Notes under the pieces: model-generated
Told to the model about the DNA's origin: nothing
The model's database searches: none
Seen by the model: the letters and a program-made list of their open reading frames with translations, nothing else
Origin: Prochlorococcus marinus
Lineage (GTDB): Bacteria > Cyanobacteriota > Cyanobacteriia > PCC-6307 > Cyanobiaceae
NCBI RefSeq assembly: GCF_001180265.1
Contig: NZ_CVSW01000032.1
Coordinates: forward strand, 434,001-498,000
Direction of reading: 5' to 3'
Length of the DNA: 64,000 bases
Translations under genes and position numbers: made by a program
Shown: in pieces, positions 46,016-53,987 of the stretch
Layout of the letters: each line of letters begins with the position of its first letter
How positions within the stretch are numbered: position 1 is the stretch's first letter

Positions 46016-46225
46016 ATGGGTAAGATTTTAGAAAATAAATTAAAAATTATAGTTGGGGAAAATCAAGCGATCAAGAATATTTGTTCATGGAAGAGAACAA
46101 AGAAGAAACAAATCAATAAGAGCGATTTAATTAAATATGATTTGGAGTTGGCAAAAAAATATATTTCTATTGGAAAGGCCGTTATTAAATTCAAAGTAAA
46201 CGACTTTAGACCTTATACCTTTTAA
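46016..46225 (+). CDS. Hypothetical protein, 69 residues
   Basis: A basic soluble frame starts MGKILENKLKIIVGENQAIK, continues SWKRTKKKQINKSDLIKY and ends NDFRPYTF. A Lys/Arg-rich middle could bind nucleic acid. No family is recognised. Confidence 0.5.
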   Translation: MGKILENKLKIIVGENQAIKNICSWKRTKKKQINKSDLIKYDLELAKKYISIGKAVIKFKVNDFRPYTF

Positions 46226-46280
46226 AACCAATTAAATGAATAGCTTACGATTATTGCGTTCAAATATCTTCTAGTTAAGT

Positions 46281-47213
46281 TTATAATCTTAATTTTTTCA
46301 GTTCGGGTTTAACTGCTGCCTCTAGCTCATTCATTGCATCTATCATTTTTTCGTGAAAAGCACCCCAATCATCTTCTGTAGATTTATAACCTCCCTCTAA
46401 ATCTATCCGAATTCTTGATGCCCTTTTACTTTCTAATCTTTGCCAACTAATTGGGAAATTAATTTTTTGATTAATAGTACTTTCTTGAAGTTGTAATTTA
46501 TCGAAAATCATTTTGTTCTCTTCTTGTGAATCTTTTCCCCTATCAATATATAATTCGCAGCCGCAATTATTTTGACCTACAAGATAATTAAATTCTAATC
46601 CTCTATATCCTGCAGAAACACAAATGTACGCTCTCATATTTGGTGATATATGTTGATGAGACTTAGCTTTTGAATTTGATAATAATTGTGTCCACCATCT
46701 TTTTCTAATGTAGTGTCTTTCAACAATTTCTTGTTTCGCTTTGCCAGCAACTTTAGCCTCGTTAGAGGGACCAGCTATTAGTGTCAATAAAGGGGCAGGA
46801 GAAGAAGAACCAATCCTAACAGCCTCAACTTTTACAAGATAAAAATATGCATTTGTAGATTCGTTTAACCATGAGATTGCATTTATATGCTCTTGTCTGG
46901 GCTCACTTACAATCCATATCGCTCCACTTGCTTCTCTTGCAGTGAGATACGTAATTAATTTTCCAAGATGGTCATGATTACTTTTCTCCAGTTGATTTTC
47001 AATAATTACAGTTTGTCCGTCGTTATTTTCTGCTACTAAATCTATGCTGAATGAACCGGCTGCTTGCTCTCTTTCCGCTGATGTCAATTCTAAATCTAAA
47101 GTATCATTCAAAATATCTAAATTTTCTTGCAGCCATTGAGTAAAGTCATATGCTTCATGTTTCCAGACCTCTCTTAATGGAACTCTTTGAAGCTTTTCAA
47201 TTGAATTTCCCAT
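46281..47213 (-). CDS. DUF4268 protein with a PD-(D/E)xK-like nuclease signature
   Basis: I chose the ATG at 47213 (MGNSIEKLQRVPLREVWKHE), matching the family start, over a TTG at 47249. The 310-residue protein has an endonuclease-like motif: Asp58 in SIDLVAEN, then Glu72 and Gln74 in VIIENQL, with GKLITYL after it. This resembles the D-x(n)-E-x-Q variant of PD-(D/E)xK enzymes. DUF4268 genes occur beside restriction-modification systems in other bacteria. It lies next to a tRNA-Pro fragment and a Type I operon, so it may be a defence gene. Confidence 0.75.
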   Translation of the reverse strand: MGNSIEKLQRVPLREVWKHEAYDFTQWLQENLDILNDTLDLELTSAEREQAAGSFSIDLVAENNDGQTVIIENQLEKSNHDHLGKLITYLTAREASGAIWIVSEPRQEHINAISWLNESTNAYFYLVKVEAVRIGSSSPAPLLTLIAGPSNEAKVAGKAKQEIVERHYIRKRWWTQLLSNSKAKSHQHISPNMRAYICVSAGYRGLEFNYLVGQNNCGCELYIDRGKDSQEENKMIFDKLQLQESTINQKINFPISWQRLESKRASRIRIDLEGGYKSTEDDWGAFHEKMIDAMNELEAAVKPELKKLRL

Positions 47214-47239
47214 GATGGATTTATAAATAAATTTCCAAT

Positions 47240-47261
47240 TTGCCGTCAAATTGCCGTCAAA
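47240..47261. repeat. Tandem 11-bp repeat upstream of DUF4268 gene
   Basis: TTGCCGTCAAA occurs twice head to tail just upstream of the DUF4268 ATG. On the reverse strand it gives TTTGACGGCAA repeated, in a position suitable for an operator or an integration-related direct repeat. Confidence 0.55.
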
Positions 47262-47348
47262 TATATCATAGTTTGTCCTGACAAATCATGAAGAAGTAAG
47301 CAGAAAATTAGTTATAGCTTGAAAACCTAGTGCTGAACTACGGCTATT

Positions 47349-47383
47349 AAGTGCTTTGGGAGCACTAAGTGGCAGGTTCGAAT
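47349..47383 (+). other. tRNA-Pro(UGG) fragment, candidate integration scar
   Basis: The 35 nt contain a paired anticodon stem (AGTGC/GCACT) with loop TTTGGGA, a 5-nt variable loop, the 5' half of the T-stem (GCAGG) and T-loop TTCGAAT. Base spacing is exactly that of a proline tRNA. The 3' T-stem and acceptor, and the D-arm side, are missing. It sits between the DUF4268 gene and hsdS. Such tRNA fragments mark att sites of genomic islands in picocyanobacteria. Confidence 0.6.
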
Positions 47384-47402
47384 AGAAAGATAAAAGATTT
47401 AG

Positions 47403-49097
47403 TTAACTTATATTTCCTCCCACAAGAGTATTTGCGAAATTTATTTGAGTACTTTGGGCTTTTACTAAAAGTGATTGAATTTGATCGCATATCAACAATA
47501 ATTGATTAACCTTGGAAACGATGCGATGTTGCTCAGCAATAGGTGGCAGAGGTACAAGAAAAGAATTAATATCTTTCATTGATATATTATCGTTCGTAGA
47601 ATTTTTAGATTTAAATATCACATCTTGAGTAAGTTCTGATTTAATCACAATATTCAAATACTCGGAAGTGATTGATCTGCCTGCTCTAATGGTTGCTACA
47701 CGTTGATTTACGAGCATTGGCTCATCAATGGACTCTACATGTAAGCTTTTCCCCACCGTTCCACCTGTCATTGCCAAAAGAATATCTCCTTCTTTAAGTT
47801 TGTACTTCTCTAGTTCATCTGAAATTTCATGCCTTACTATCTTATTTTTCTTAAATCCGCCTTCATCAAAGTCTGAAATTCTTATTACACGAGTTCCATC
47901 TTTGACAAAGTTTCCACTAGAGAAAGCGAACCCACCGTTTACATTAGCTAATTCCTTAAGTTGCTTCCAATCCCATTTATAAGGAACTTTGAACGGAACT
48001 ATTATTTCAGAACTTGGAATAAATTCTTTATCTAATATTGGAGAAAAATTTTTCTTATCTTCAATATTCTGCTTGACTAGCTTGCCCATAACAGCAAGTT
48101 GTAAGATTACTTTTTTTAATCGATTGATACTGCTTTCAGAAATGAAGAGGTTATTGAAATTTTTTTGTATATTTATCCAAGCCTCTTTAATTTGAGTGGG
48201 ATCTGCCGTGGCAGAGATTAGCGGTTTTAATAACGAGGTGACAAGCATGTTATGAGTCTCGATATTTTTTAGTTGAACTTGTTCTAATTGATCACAAAGC
48301 TCCATTAACTCGTTTACTTTGGCAACAATTCGATGTTGTTCGGCAATGGGTGGCAGCGGGAAGGGAAATCCTAGTAGTTTTACTCTGGAAATATTTGGCT
48401 GTGCTCCACCCTCACTTGCGGCATTAAAGTTCTTTCGCTGGGAAAGTAAATAAAAAAAGAGATATCGATTAAAAATCCCATTAAATGGTGTGCATCCGCA
48501 TACAGCCTGATTTGTGTAGGCCTTTTCCGCAAGTATTGCAGTTTTACCAATAGTCGCACCATACATAGCAACTAAAACATCTCCAATATTATTCTCCCTG
48601 AATGAGCCTGCATTAATAGCTTCCTCTGTGATTCTCTCTGATGAACCTTTTAGATCTTGGCAATCATTGAGTTCACCTGATTTGAGCCAGGTATTACCCC
48701 CTCCATAGTAATTTGGGTTTTCTCTTTTTGGAGTAGATCCTGATCCCCAATCTGCAATAATTCCAAGAGTTGTCAGCTCCCAGCTTGAAGGTAGTTTTAT
48801 AGAGGACCACGAATCATTAGTAATGCTGCATTTATGATTTTTTATCTTCTTACTTTTTATGAGAGATTGCCTTTCATAATTAATTTTTTCCAAAAGCTTA
48901 TTAGCGCTTTCGTCATTTTTATCTTGCTGCAGTAGCTTGCCTTGCATCGCGAGTTGAAGTATTAGCTCACGCAATTTCTGAATACCGTAAAGCTCAATTT
49001 TTTTATTCTTACCTTTCCCGCTATTCGACTTTGATTTGACTGTTGAAGTATAAATTTCGAGATTTTCTATAAATAATTTTTCAGTATTTACAATCAT
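47403..49097 (-). CDS. hsdS: Type I restriction-modification specificity subunit HsdS
   Basis: The 564-residue protein has two half-repeats, each with a target-recognition domain and a conserved coil. The coils are LPPIAEQHRIVAKVNELMEL in the middle and LPPIAEQHRIVSKVNQLLLI at the C-terminus. Each half is preceded by a helical RLKKVILQLA-type segment. The two TRDs bind the two halves of a bipartite DNA target. It overlaps hsdM by 4 nt, and a tRNA-Pro fragment follows its stop codon. Confidence 0.95.
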   Translation of the reverse strand: MIVNTEKLFIENLEIYTSTVKSKSNSGKGKNKKIELYGIQKLRELILQLAMQGKLLQQDKNDESANKLLEKINYERQSLIKSKKIKNHKCSITNDSWSSIKLPSSWELTTLGIIADWGSGSTPKRENPNYYGGGNTWLKSGELNDCQDLKGSSERITEEAINAGSFRENNIGDVLVAMYGATIGKTAILAEKAYTNQAVCGCTPFNGIFNRYLFFYLLSQRKNFNAASEGGAQPNISRVKLLGFPFPLPPIAEQHRIVAKVNELMELCDQLEQVQLKNIETHNMLVTSLLKPLISATADPTQIKEAWINIQKNFNNLFISESSINRLKKVILQLAVMGKLVKQNIEDKKNFSPILDKEFIPSSEIIVPFKVPYKWDWKQLKELANVNGGFAFSSGNFVKDGTRVIRISDFDEGGFKKNKIVRHEISDELEKYKLKEGDILLAMTGGTVGKSLHVESIDEPMLVNQRVATIRAGRSITSEYLNIVIKSELTQDVIFKSKNSTNDNISMKDINSFLVPLPPIAEQHRIVSKVNQLLLICDQIQSLLVKAQSTQINFANTLVGGNIS

Positions 49098-50557
49098 TTT
49101 TCATCTGAGAGAGCATTTTCAAGGATTTCTTTGAGTTTATTGCGCAGGTCTTGAATTTGATTCAATTGATCATCGTACTGATTCAAAAGCTCATTAGGGT
49201 CATGAATGATTTGATCGTCTATGTATGGGTTATTAATATCAAGGTTAAAATTTCGGGAGACAATTTCATCGATATTTACTTTCCAGGCACATGTTGTTTC
49301 TATCCGAGACCTGAATTTATCTTTCTCAGATCCCCACCAATCTTGGATCGGTTGAAATTCTTCATAGTTGATTGGTTTCGTTTTGTTATAAGCTTTAACA
49401 CCCTTAGGTAACTGATGTTCGTAAAACCATATCTCTTTAGTTGGTTCCCCTTTATTAAAGAATAAAAGGTTAGTGGAGATTGAGGTATATGGGGCAAAAA
49501 CTGATTTAGGTAATCGGATAATAGTGTGTAAATTGCAATCTTTTAAAAGAGCTTCTTTTATTCTTGTTTTAACTCCCTCACCAAAAAGAGTGCCATCAGG
49601 GAGAACTAAACCTGCTCGACCTCCATTTTTTAGCAACCTCATCATTAAAACTAGAAAAAGATCAGCCGTCTCTTTGGTTTGAAATTCTCCAGGAAAGTTT
49701 TTTTCAATACCATCTTCTTCTATGCCTCCAAAGGGAGGATTAGTAACTATAACATCTACTTTTTCATTTGTTCCCCAACTTACTAAAGGCCTTGCCAAAG
49801 TATTATCTGCGCTAACGTTATTAGGAACATCAATTCCATGTAAAAGTAAGTTTGTCATGCAAAGTATATAAGGAAGATGTTTTTTTTCGATTCCTTTAAA
49901 AGCTTCTTGTAAAAGTTTCTGATCAGCTTCTGTTTTTGCCTTTTTTCTAAGGTGTTCTATTACATTTACTAAGAAACCACCAGTACCACATGCAGGATCT
50001 AATATTTTTTCATGCAATTCGGGGTTTACCCTATCAACAATAAATTCGGTAACTGCCCTTGGTGTATAAAATTCACCTGCATCGTTAGCAGCCTGAAGTT
50101 CTGATAAAAGTTTTTCATATATATCTCCGAATAGGTGACGATCATCTGAGGAATTAAAGTCGATCTCATTAACCTTGTTAATTACTTGACGAAGTAAAGT
50201 ACCATTTTTCATATAATTAGTTGCATCTTCAAATGCATTTTTTATTAAATTAATTATTGGATTCCCAGTATTCTTTAGTTCTTTAAGATTTGGCAAAAGA
50301 TAATTATTAATAAATTCTAAAAGTTCATCTCCTGTAATGCCCTCCTCATCAATTGCCCAATTACTCCACCTTAACTCTTTGGCAATTGGAGATTGATAAT
50401 TATCATTTAATAATTCCATTTCTTGCTCTCTATCATCAAAAATTTTTAGAAAAAACATCCAACCTAATTGCTCTAAGCGCTGAACATCTCCATAAGTTCC
50501 CTTATCTTTACGCATTATGTCGCGAATAGATTTGACTATCCCAGAGACATTACTCAT
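49094..50557 (-). CDS. hsdM: Type I restriction-modification methyltransferase HsdM
   Basis: The 487-residue N6-adenine methyltransferase has the SAM motif DPACGTGGF (187-195) and catalytic NPPF (273-276), with an N-terminal HsdM domain (GWMFFLKIFDDREQEME). With HsdS it methylates host sites. The stop overlaps the hsdS ATG by 4 nt, and hsdR lies 5' with a 1-nt overlap, so the operon is hsdR-hsdM-hsdS. Confidence 0.96.
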   Translation of the reverse strand: MSNVSGIVKSIRDIMRKDKGTYGDVQRLEQLGWMFFLKIFDDREQEMELLNDNYQSPIAKELRWSNWAIDEEGITGDELLEFINNYLLPNLKELKNTGNPIINLIKNAFEDATNYMKNGTLLRQVINKVNEIDFNSSDDRHLFGDIYEKLLSELQAANDAGEFYTPRAVTEFIVDRVNPELHEKILDPACGTGGFLVNVIEHLRKKAKTEADQKLLQEAFKGIEKKHLPYILCMTNLLLHGIDVPNNVSADNTLARPLVSWGTNEKVDVIVTNPPFGGIEEDGIEKNFPGEFQTKETADLFLVLMMRLLKNGGRAGLVLPDGTLFGEGVKTRIKEALLKDCNLHTIIRLPKSVFAPYTSISTNLLFFNKGEPTKEIWFYEHQLPKGVKAYNKTKPINYEEFQPIQDWWGSEKDKFRSRIETTCAWKVNIDEIVSRNFNLDINNPYIDDQIIHDPNELLNQYDDQLNQIQDLRNKLKEILENALSDEK

Positions 50558-52890
50558 TAATTAGTTACCTCTTCATAAATAGCTTCTTCAAGGTCTTTAA
50601 TAGCTTTTAAGTAAGAATTTTTATCTCCAAAATATTTAATAATTTCTGTAGGAGTCCCCATCTCTGATAATGGAGGTAATCTAAGGATTTCCATTGATTC
50701 GATACCCTTAATACCACTATCGGCATATTTCAATAAAAGAGCGTTTAATACAGCACGAGCTTGTTCCCCATATTCACCAAATATATTTCTTTTCTTAACT
50801 TTATTTGCTCGTTCTTTTCTTGTTAATGGGGGCTGATCAAAGGCTACATGACACAAGAGATCAAATGCATCATATTCTTTCCCAACTTGTTCTTCTAATC
50901 GCTCAAAAAATACTCCTTTTGAAGCTAATTCATCTATAACTGCTTGTTTTCGATCAGCATTACTCCATGTAGTTAAAAATGCATCTAACGAAGCAAACTC
51001 AGACCTAACAGTATTACGAGAAAAGTCCCTTATACTTTCTGTTATTAAATTCCCGTTTTGATCAAGATAGCTAATCCGCTCACTTTGAATAGTAACTTCA
51101 ACATCTTTTACGTAGAACTTTTTTCTTGGATCAGGAGCAGGTCCAGGGTCCGGTCCTGGTTCAGGATCGGATCCTGGATTTGGATTTGGCGGCCAATTTG
51201 GATCTGGTATTGGATCTCCATCCCAATTAGGATCTGAGAAAAGCCTTGTGGCATTTCTAAAGTCCATAATTGTGAAAAATAATTTATTAAAATTTTCATT
51301 TATTCGAGTCCCTCTACCAATTATTTGCTTGAACTCATCAATGGATGCAATATTTTTATCAATCACAATTAATTTGCAAGTCTGTGCATCAACTCCAGTA
51401 GTCATTAATTTTGATGTGCAAGCGATAACTGGATAAGTTGATTCGGGATCAATAAAATTATCAAGTTGATTTTTACCAATTTCATTATCACCAGTTATTC
51501 TCATTACATATTTACTATTATCTGCAGCTAATTCAGGATTTTCATTGACCATAGCCTCTCTCATCCTTTCTGCATGATCAATATCTTCGCAAAAGATAAT
51601 TGTTTTACTATATCTATCAGTGGCTTTTAGAAATTCTGTGATCTTCTCAGCCACTCTTTTTGTTCTCTTCTTTAATACTAAATTTCTATCAAAGTCAGAT
51701 TGCACATATTCTCTATCATCTATTAATTCTCCATAATCATCTAACTGGCCTGGTTTCGGAACCCAACCCTCTATATCTTTATCTAGGCCATAACGAATAA
51801 CTTTATATGGAGAAAGAAATCCGTCTTGTATTCCTTGTTTGAGGGAATATTTAAAAATTGGTTCTCCAAAATAATCAATATTAGATACCTTGCTTGATTC
51901 TTTTGGGGTAGCAGTTAGACCTATTTGAGTAGCAGATGTAAAGTAATCTAAAATTTTTCTCCAAGATGCATCATCAGCAGCACTTCCTCGATGACATTCA
52001 TCGATAACAATAAGATCAAAGAAATCTTTTGAAAATTGCTTGTAGATATTTTTTTCTTCTTCTGTACCGGTTACTGCTTGATAAAGACAAAGGTAAACTT
52101 CATAAGACTTATCAACTGTTCTATTGGTGACTTTAGTCATTACTTTCCCAAAAGGTTTGAAATCATTATTTTTAGTTTGATCTACAAGAATATTTCTATC
52201 AGCTAAGAATAAAATTCTTTTTTTTGTTTTACTTTTCCAAAGTCTCCATATTATTTGAAAGGCAGTATAAGTTTTACCTGTCCCAGTTGCCATGACAAGT
52301 AAAATTCTATTCGCTCCTTTTGCAATAGCATCAATTGTTCTATTAATTGCATTTACCTGGTAATAGCGCGGACTTCTTCCTGACCCATCATCGTAATAAT
52401 CGTAAGTAACAATATTTTCTTGTTCTTCGGTATATCCCTTATGAGTTTTATATCTATCCCAGAGTATTTCTGGAGTAGGGAATTTATCTAATGAAATTTC
52501 CTTTTCAATTATGTCTCCTTTCCCTGTTCGATCATGTTCAATAAATGCATCACCATTTGAACTATATGCAAATGGGACATCCAGAATTTCCGCATATTCC
52601 AGGGCCTGCTGCATTCCTCCGCCAACTGGATTATTGTTATCTTTTGCCTCAACGATTGCTAATGGAATATTTGGTTTATGGTAAAGCACATAATCAGCAA
52701 ACTTTCTTTTCCCTCTTTTAGTTTTATTCCCATTAACTTCTATATTTCCATCTGTGAAATAATATTGTTCACGAATTTGAGTTATTGAATCCCAATTAGC
52801 GGAATGAATTGATGGTGTAATGGAAATCCTACACACGTCAGCTTCAGAGAAACTTTTCTTTTCTTTCTTAGAAAGTTCATTCCATTCCAT
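50557..52890 (-). CDS. hsdR: Type I restriction endonuclease subunit HsdR
   Basis: The 777-residue translocase-nuclease has a N-terminal nuclease motif (Asp66 in FADYVLYH, Glu81 and Lys83 in IVEAK), then a superfamily 2 helicase: Walker A ATGTGKT (201-207), DECHRGS, TATPKE and the late GRGTRI motif. A Pro/Asp-rich linker lies between the helicase and C-terminal domain. It is shorter than EcoKI-type HsdR, as in the EcoEI-like group. It cleaves unmethylated DNA after translocation. The first gene of the operon, it has its promoter beyond 52890. Confidence 0.95.
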   Translation of the reverse strand: MEWNELSKKEKKSFSEADVCRISITPSIHSANWDSITQIREQYYFTDGNIEVNGNKTKRGKRKFADYVLYHKPNIPLAIVEAKDNNNPVGGGMQQALEYAEILDVPFAYSSNGDAFIEHDRTGKGDIIEKEISLDKFPTPEILWDRYKTHKGYTEEQENIVTYDYYDDGSGRSPRYYQVNAINRTIDAIAKGANRILLVMATGTGKTYTAFQIIWRLWKSKTKKRILFLADRNILVDQTKNNDFKPFGKVMTKVTNRTVDKSYEVYLCLYQAVTGTEEEKNIYKQFSKDFFDLIVIDECHRGSAADDASWRKILDYFTSATQIGLTATPKESSKVSNIDYFGEPIFKYSLKQGIQDGFLSPYKVIRYGLDKDIEGWVPKPGQLDDYGELIDDREYVQSDFDRNLVLKKRTKRVAEKITEFLKATDRYSKTIIFCEDIDHAERMREAMVNENPELAADNSKYVMRITGDNEIGKNQLDNFIDPESTYPVIACTSKLMTTGVDAQTCKLIVIDKNIASIDEFKQIIGRGTRINENFNKLFFTIMDFRNATRLFSDPNWDGDPIPDPNWPPNPNPGSDPEPGPDPGPAPDPRKKFYVKDVEVTIQSERISYLDQNGNLITESIRDFSRNTVRSEFASLDAFLTTWSNADRKQAVIDELASKGVFFERLEEQVGKEYDAFDLLCHVAFDQPPLTRKERANKVKKRNIFGEYGEQARAVLNALLLKYADSGIKGIESMEILRLPPLSEMGTPTEIIKYFGDKNSYLKAIKDLEEAIYEEVTN

Positions 52891-52893
52891 AAA

Positions 52894-53406
52894 TCAGTTT
52901 TTATTTCCTTTCCTCATTTGTTCAAACATACTTACATATTGTAATGGAAAAACTTTAGTTAAATTATCTATTTTTTCTTCATCAAGTTCAACACCTTCAG
53001 GTAATTTCTTTATCAACTTTGGTATAGCTAATTTAGTGACATCTTTGCAAAAATTTATTCTATAAACCGCTTCTTTTTGTATCCCCTCTTTTATAGAACC
53101 ATCTTTTTCAAAAATAGAATTTATATCAAGTTTATTTCCTTTTAAAAGAGCAATTAAAACTTCATCAGCTATCCTTAAGGCTTCTTTTGATTCTTTCCCA
53201 TTTTTAATTCCAAATACCCAGGTGCAGGCACCTACGCCAAAAGCTCTAGCAATACAATCATCCTTACCAATCTCATCGCAAGGTAACTTAAATGACTCCT
53301 CAATCTTTTTTAGATCATATCCTTTTTCTCCCTCTGGGAAACCAGCAAAAGTCTTTATTGGAGAAATTAAAATTAATAAAAATGGTAGAAGGAATAATTT
53401 TTTCAT
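52894..53406 (-). CDS. Secreted protein of unknown function
   Basis: The 170-residue precursor has a clear signal peptide (MKKLFLLPFLLILISPIKTFA). The mature protein has cysteines in LPCDEIGKDDCIARAFGVGA, CTWVFG and NFCKD, which could form disulfides, and a helical C-terminus. It lies 3 nt upstream of hsdR on the same strand, so it may share its transcript. That does not show a role in restriction. No family is recognised. Confidence 0.65.
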   Translation of the reverse strand: MKKLFLLPFLLILISPIKTFAGFPEGEKGYDLKKIEESFKLPCDEIGKDDCIARAFGVGACTWVFGIKNGKESKEALRIADEVLIALLKGNKLDINSIFEKDGSIKEGIQKEAVYRINFCKDVTKLAIPKLIKKLPEGVELDEEKIDNLTKVFPLQYVSMFEQMRKGNKN

Positions 53407-53470
53407 TCTGTTAGACGATTTAAAAATAACTTTTGTCCTGATTAAACATTTATTTGTTTATGATCTCAGT

Positions 53471-53659
53471 ATGGCTTTAAGTTCTTACAGAATGCATAGG
53501 ATTTATCTGGCAGCGACCATGGGCTATGGCCTTGGATCAGATGATCCTGAGGAACTTGCATACTACAAGAAATTAAGAAAAGAAATGGATGATATGAAGA
53601 AGGATGCGGTTAAAAAAGGCATACCTCTTACGTGGGATAATCCAGGAGAAAAGGATTGA
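53471..53659 (+). CDS. Hypothetical protein, 62 residues
   Basis: The chosen ATG gives MALSSYRMHRIYLAATMGYG and a charged helical end KKGIPLTWDNPGEKD. A longer upstream frame overlaps the secreted-protein gene and is not used. It is followed by a 1-nt-overlapping microprotein gene. No family is recognised. Confidence 0.58.
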   Translation: MALSSYRMHRIYLAATMGYGLGSDDPEELAYYKKLRKEMDDMKKDAVKKGIPLTWDNPGEKD

Positions 53660-53754
53660 TGAGTCTTAATATTTTTTTGTTAATTGATGGAAGCCTAATG
53701 CTTATTGGATTACCTTTATTGATGATCCTAAAAGGCAAAAAGAAGACCCCCTAA
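53659..53754 (+). CDS. 31-residue single-helix membrane microprotein
   Basis: The frame starts MSLNIFLLIDGSLMLIGLPL and ends LMILKGKKKTP. Its ATG shares the A with the preceding stop codon (TGATG), a sign of translational coupling. No family is recognised. Confidence 0.55.
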   Translation: MSLNIFLLIDGSLMLIGLPLLMILKGKKKTP

Positions 53755-53823
53755 GTCAATTATTTAACAGCGAAAGTTACTCCCAGTTTCTTATAATTTT
53801 AGTTGTAGCAATGCTTTTGTCCA

Positions 53824-53895
<72 letters not shown>

Positions 53896-53905
53896 AATTT
53901 TAAAG

Positions 53906-53987
53906 TGGGCCGGGTTGGATTTGAACCAACGTAGGCAGAGCCAGCGGATTTACAGTCCGCCCCCTTTAACCACTCGGGCACCGACCC
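53906..53987 (-). tRNA. trnY: tRNA-Tyr (anticodon GUA)
   Basis: The cloverleaf has acceptor GGGTCGG paired with CCGGCCC plus A, anticodon loop CTGTAAA and a long class II variable arm before the T-loop TTCAAAT. The 82-nt length is as expected for bacterial tRNA-Tyr. It is tandem with tRNA-Thr. Confidence 0.96.

Follow-up and report, generated by a model that had tools for sequence, protein, structure and literature searches.

We analysed a stretch of 64,000 nucleotides of Prochlorococcus marinus (contig NZ_CVSW01000032.1), here called the window, and found at 47349-47383 the sequence AAGTGCTTTGGGAGCACTAAGTGGCAGGTTCGAAT, which contains the 3' half of a tRNA-Pro(UGG) gene. This piece is very probably the recombinase-side attachment end of a small, non-autonomous cassette of the tycheposon type, now a relic lying beside an independently gained Type I restriction-modification (R-M) operon. 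A leader joined to a tRNA half identifies a mobile unit of the islands, so that cassette borders can be marked from sequence alone in any Prochlorococcus genome. In the present case a candidate defence gene would have moved as a cassette and ended beside the R-M operon, a juxtaposition that bears on the assembly of phage defence in the most abundant phototroph, with hsdS present in only 34 of the 266 genomes of the genus. The stranded cassette end is a record of gene swapping among these ocean bacteria. The features of the window are the following.

46027 to 53786, no strand: the whole island, absent at the empty site in other strains.
46260 to 47383, plus strand: partial copy of a 1.8-kb DUF4268 cassette of genome G229, 96.9% identical.
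46281 to 47213, minus strand: DUF4268 gene, 310 aa, PADLOC candidate family PDC-S11 (Pfam PF14088, E 3.5e-24; PDC-S11, E 9.8e-141).
47234 to 47350, plus strand: conserved leader, right-end type A (nhmmer 47234-47348, E 1.2e-28; conservation onset at about -114; recombinases at the far side of such leaders).
47239 to 47285, plus strand: arm-like repeats TTTGCCGTCAAA and TTGCCGTCAAA with the inverted repeat TTTGTC-CT-GACAAA, read from the sequence; the GACAAA repeats are conserved in 53 leaders.
47326 to 47343, plus strand: imperfect inverted repeat adjoining the core, consensus CCTAGTGC-T-GCACTAGG; the window variant CCTAGTGCTGAACTACGG is that of G098 and G228.
47351 to 47383, plus strand: tRNA-Pro(UGG) 3' half, from the 5' anticodon stem to the T-loop, with 31/33 identities to the tRNA-Pro of the host genus; a recurrent unit boundary in the genus.
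47384 to 52894, no strand: hsdS-hsdM-hsdR block, a separate neighbour with only scattered weak matches in the 266 genus genomes.
53823 to 53987, minus strand: tRNA-Thr(GGT) and tRNA-Tyr(GTA), from tRNA calls, the host hotspot of the island; elsewhere displaced tRNA-Thr halves lie at the far island end.

The preliminary description had recognised a tRNA-Pro(UGG) half here, and the match to the tRNA-Pro(UGG) gene of the genus bears this out (33 nt, 94%, E 2.8e-8; the gene of L022, as an example, is CGGGGCGTGGCGCAGCTTGGTAGCGCGGGTGCTTTGGGAGCACTAGGTCGCAGGTTCGAATCCTGTCGCCCCGA). The half runs through the anticodon stem (GTGC/GCAC), the loop TTTGGGA with the anticodon UGG, the variable region, the 5' T-stem and the T-loop, and then stops, lacking the terminal 13 nt, CCTGTCGCCCCGA. 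The stem had been taken for a non-host sequence, and this is refuted: GTGC-TTTGGGA-GCACTAGG (GTGC-TTTGGGA-GCACTA) is a near copy of the genus tRNA-Pro. At a tolerance of three mismatches, a search for the core gave a single hit in the window, and 100 shuffles gave no hit. ARAGORN and Rfam did not call the half, as expected for half a gene, and the exact pattern of the window core was not found in viral contigs. The host assembly G000 is a draft (1.39 Mb, 120 contigs, ~85% complete) in which neither an intact tRNA-Pro(UGG) nor the tRNA-Pro array was found; the missing intact gene probably reflects assembly incompleteness. Four other Pro halves lose identity directly past the T-loop as the window copy does (L096:10515, L167:2563, L100:8848 and L052:12994), and in L096 the T-stem is altered with its pairing kept. 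Such halves are possibly junctions with other tRNA-like sites.

A real half lies within the 35 nt first delimited, and these limits are too narrow, since homology spans 47234-47383 and, with the DUF4268 gene, 46260-47383. The leader of ~115 nt is joined directly to the half. Conservation among 53 distinct leader copies begins ~114 nt upstream of the core and is at background level beyond; the nhmmer model that detects the leader was trained on 50 leaders, with the window and G229 excluded. The query 47300-47440 has matches in 237 of the 266 genus genomes, and among the matches listed the alignments end at or before query position 85, which is the end of the T-loop. The type A leader pattern was not found in viral contigs.

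In terms of recombinases, one diverse family of tyrosine recombinases was found beside Pro halves at ten loci, four in genomes (L044, L094, L131 and L151) and six in viral contigs (L113-L118), with 28-55% identity among the five compared. Their Pfam matches are weak and their matches to PHROG integrases moderate. The catalytic pattern R...HxxR...Y is readable in the recombinase of L094, where the leader between recombinase and core is of type A. The leader is most likely an attachment arm between recombinase gene and crossover core, because the recombinase genes begin 112-167 nt from the core at 10/10 loci, always oriented away from it. The direct and inverted repeats of GACAAA type would then plausibly be arm-type binding sites. 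Searches of the window with five relatives gave no tyrosine recombinase of this family. The six viral contigs, from IMG/VR, carry an exact 46-bp tRNA-Pro 3' half adjoining the recombinase, and appear to be temperate phages or satellites sharing the tRNA-Pro site. Between Pro halves on the G229 contig, L044:3040-11280 encodes a tyrosine recombinase, a fused prohead protease and major capsid protein, and an AAA ATPase, and this element seems satellite-like from its gene content. Pro halves on the same contig face either way, a pattern that could be genuine or an artefact of the draft assembly.

The cargo at type A leaders is unrelated between copies, and includes the recombinase, PstS-like, L-aspartate-oxidase-like, trypsin-like protease and EF-hand proteins (these four named from their sequences) and DUF4268. 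This bears on another explanation, that leader and tRNA half form a functional non-coding RNA or a regulatory region (terminator or promoter) of the neighbouring genes. The strong conservation of the leader and the inverted repeat adjoining the core speak for it; when the pairing of this repeat was tabulated, most pairs were nearly invariant and hence hold little information. However, the cargo on the leader side and its orientation change from copy to copy, the window copy is cut within the tRNA part, and Rfam gave only chance matches on the window feature at E up to 10. The conservation is also explained by a recombinase at a fixed distance, and we give the RNA or regulatory explanation very little credence.

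Considering the whole genus, direct copies of the tRNA-Pro half bound 71 consecutive units in 19 stretches, drawn from genomes carrying the leader and half repeat. Units range from 0.6 to 9.6 kb with a median of 2.2 kb, most being 0.6-6 kb and many below 4 kb. Every copy is on the same strand in 16 of the 19 stretches, and the intact tRNA-Pro is the first copy in 9/9 stretches that hold it. Most units have no recombinase, and unit content varies strongly between genomes. There are several types of right end (A to F, and H) and three of left end. A type A right end comes after a type 1 left end in 24 of 29 cases, and type C after type 2 in 11 of 14 (Fisher p 1.7e-4, a value that is too small because the units come from related genomes and are not independent). 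Through this association of left and right ends, each unit resembles an element with its own two ends. A search for clean insertion polymorphism of cassettes in the Pro arrays gave three candidates, which were set aside because they rest on over-merged clusters.

The cassette itself is best understood through G229. The 1.8-kb unit there has DUF4268, the leader and a complete half, CCTGTCGCCCCGA included, as its right portion. Two further genomes have DUF4268 with the same leader type and a half: G019, in a 1.3-kb unit and with a protein 90% identical, and G156, with a protein 75% identical. The match of the window protein to the candidate defence family PDC-S11 is full length, and its gene has its start codon at 47213, at a distance of 138 nt from the core. 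DUF4268 thus appears to be cassette cargo in the slot that the recombinase occupies in autonomous relatives. The gene differs between window and G229 by 21 synonymous and 0 nonsynonymous changes, and is therefore under selection. Ten of the 35 differences between the two copies fall in 47334-47371, where the window has the G098/G228 variant, which suggests exchange at the attachment region. The left end of the cassette is missing in the window, as homology with G229 begins at 46260. A blastn search of 46260-47403 against phage records gave no match.

The preliminary description had paired the half with the R-M operon, whose block starts one base after it, and had named as a refutation the occurrence of the same piece where hsd genes are lacking. 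This is what we found: the half appears to belong to the DUF4268 cassette and not to hsdSMR, because DUF4268, leader and half occur together in three other genomes (G229, G019 and G156) with no such hsd operon adjoining. An attachment remnant of an element that brought hsdSMR is accordingly an unlikely origin for the half, even though hsdS ends 19 nt from it and hsdS loci elsewhere sometimes lie among tRNA-Pro halves (4/33) or beside tRNA-Thr/Tyr (2/33). In the orientation of the units, the half is the closing end of the DNA to its left, with DUF4268, rather than of the hsd side, and no left-end type is visible in the sequence from 47384 onwards. The hsd operon is most likely a neighbour gained separately.

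As for the location, the island has its left flank up to ~46026 and its right flank from 53787 or 53824. These flanks lie ~40 bp apart in G042 and ~0.4-0.5 kb apart in G012, G031, G098 and G138, and therefore the island sits at tRNA-Thr(GGT)/tRNA-Tyr. A synteny check for an empty site had been proposed earlier and succeeded in these five strains, at this pair and not at tRNA-Pro. The proposal that a tRNA-targeting integrative element of picocyanobacteria left the half thus stands, with the correction that the island occupies another tRNA site. Islands occupy the same place in other strains, and their far end bears a displaced tRNA-Thr, as a copy or as a half. A displaced tRNA-Thr half was sought in the window and not found, so the left border of the island is eroded. 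Pro halves are also inside the Thr/Tyr islands of G011, G032, G167 and G174, and therefore the tRNA-Pro site reached another tRNA island more than once. Carriage within a Thr-site element is one option for the route of the half into the Thr island.

These islands also weigh against a technical explanation, in which an assembly or amplification chimera joined array DNA to the hsd operon. The incomplete draft in many contigs, its missing tRNA-Pro array and the abrupt break at 47383 would fit such a chimera. Against it, the outer flanks on either side are those expected from synteny and lie on a single 520-kb contig, and tRNA-Pro halves recur in the four Thr/Tyr islands just named; we consider a chimera very unlikely.

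Two further observations concern the tRNA-Thr/Tyr site. The window has at 53483-53741 a small gene by tRNA-Thr, whose homologue (~76% identical) lies inverted in other strains, both where the site is empty and at the far ends of islands. At L050:4640-4735 and L053:4529-4624, ~25 kb away from the intact tRNA pair, lie displaced 96-bp copies that comprise the whole tRNA-Thr and the 3' tip of tRNA-Tyr; in other strains the displaced piece is only a tRNA-Thr half. At tRNA-Thr/Tyr, integration may use two different target points.

The cassette reading can be put as a mechanism. A tyrosine recombinase from related elements would act inside the anticodon-loop core of tRNA-Pro(UGG), GTGC-TTTGGGA-GCAC. 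Insertion would rebuild the tRNA gene at one end, with the old 3' half staying at the other, behind the leader arm of the element. Repeated insertion with the tRNA restored would make tandem arrays grow, and the DUF4268 (PDC-S11) cassette would be one such array unit. An incomplete copy, including the leader arm and the tRNA-Pro half, would later have reached the tRNA-Thr/tRNA-Tyr island, where it lies next to the Type I R-M operon, presumably gained independently. The copy there has lost its left end, and its tRNA part lacks the final 13 nt. Neither an excised nor a circular form was observed. We regard the window copy as a relic because it is partial at both ends, has no recombinase and sits in an island that several strains lack.

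A broader interpretation, which we hold as possible but tentative, is that tRNA-Pro(UGG) hosts an integron-like system. Small cassettes holding one or a few genes, non-autonomous and with a matched left end and a right arm of ~115 nt, would be captured in tandem by recombinases that act in trans, and their halves would hitchhike to other tRNA islands and provide new landing sites there. The arrays might be likened in outline to integron cassette arrays, with tandem small gene units behind one anchor site. However, the site here is a tRNA half with a leader that most likely serves as recombinase arm, and we do not file the arrays as an integron member. We see the window feature as the remnant of an element of known kind, and the cassette-array reading as the more novel case.

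Tycheposons of Prochlorococcus, reportedly described by Hackl et al. in 2023, resemble the cassettes in tRNA-gene integration in picocyanobacterial islands, a tyrosine recombinase, variable cargo and satellite-like members (the G229 contig with recombinase, capsid-protease and ATPase). Coleman et al. are said to have noted in 2006 a tRNA fragment of ~48 bp repeated many times in Prochlorococcus islands. We take this repeat to be probably the same as the shared core of ~46 bp, extended here by matched end families and by the recombinase position.

Tycheposons use 7 tRNA genes and measure 4-200 kb (PMC10872708), and the window remnant is 1.1 kb, its source cassette 1.8 kb and the median unit 2.2 kb. 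The genus arrays have the tRNA 3' half as direct repeat, of which the window keeps one copy; unlike a tycheposon, the window copy has no tyrosine recombinase of its own and a single element end, the left one being gone. We therefore file the window feature as either a remnant of tycheposon-type elements or a cassette that they mobilised. It is not filed as a complete tycheposon because the window has no recombinase, whereas elements whose ends are the same or similar have one (L094, L131, L044 and the viral contigs).

Related cases are known. The tRNA-Met attachment region of MIT9313 and phage P-SS2 has several 36-bp copies of a tRNA piece in an island and also near the phage integrase gene; these island repeats are alike, but involve another tRNA and a phage instead of small cassettes (PMC2784084). 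An additive island of Methylophilaceae has recurring 20-bp tRNA-Lys ends (PMC10872708) and is likewise punctuated by repeats of a tRNA 3' end, although in another phylum, with another tRNA and a shorter repeat. Another picocyanobacterial integrase family lies near tRNA-Phe/Cys, with R-M genes nearby (PMC10187409).

Lastly, the hsd operon has clear HsdR, HsdM and HsdS genes and is a Type I restriction-modification system that is not part of the element. The block ends at the stop of the island gene 52894-53406, which other Thr islands carry with no such operon, and its DNA has only short weak matches in the genus. No hsdS relatives were confirmed in viral contigs. Among the hsdS genomes, 33 are above the cut-off. 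An association of hsdS with Pro halves was considered and dropped, as 4/33 stretches against 0/7 controls are too few to claim. Five hsdS stretches (L119, L120, L122, L128 and L138) lie beside tRNA-Asn(GTT), which is a possible hotspot for Type I R-M.
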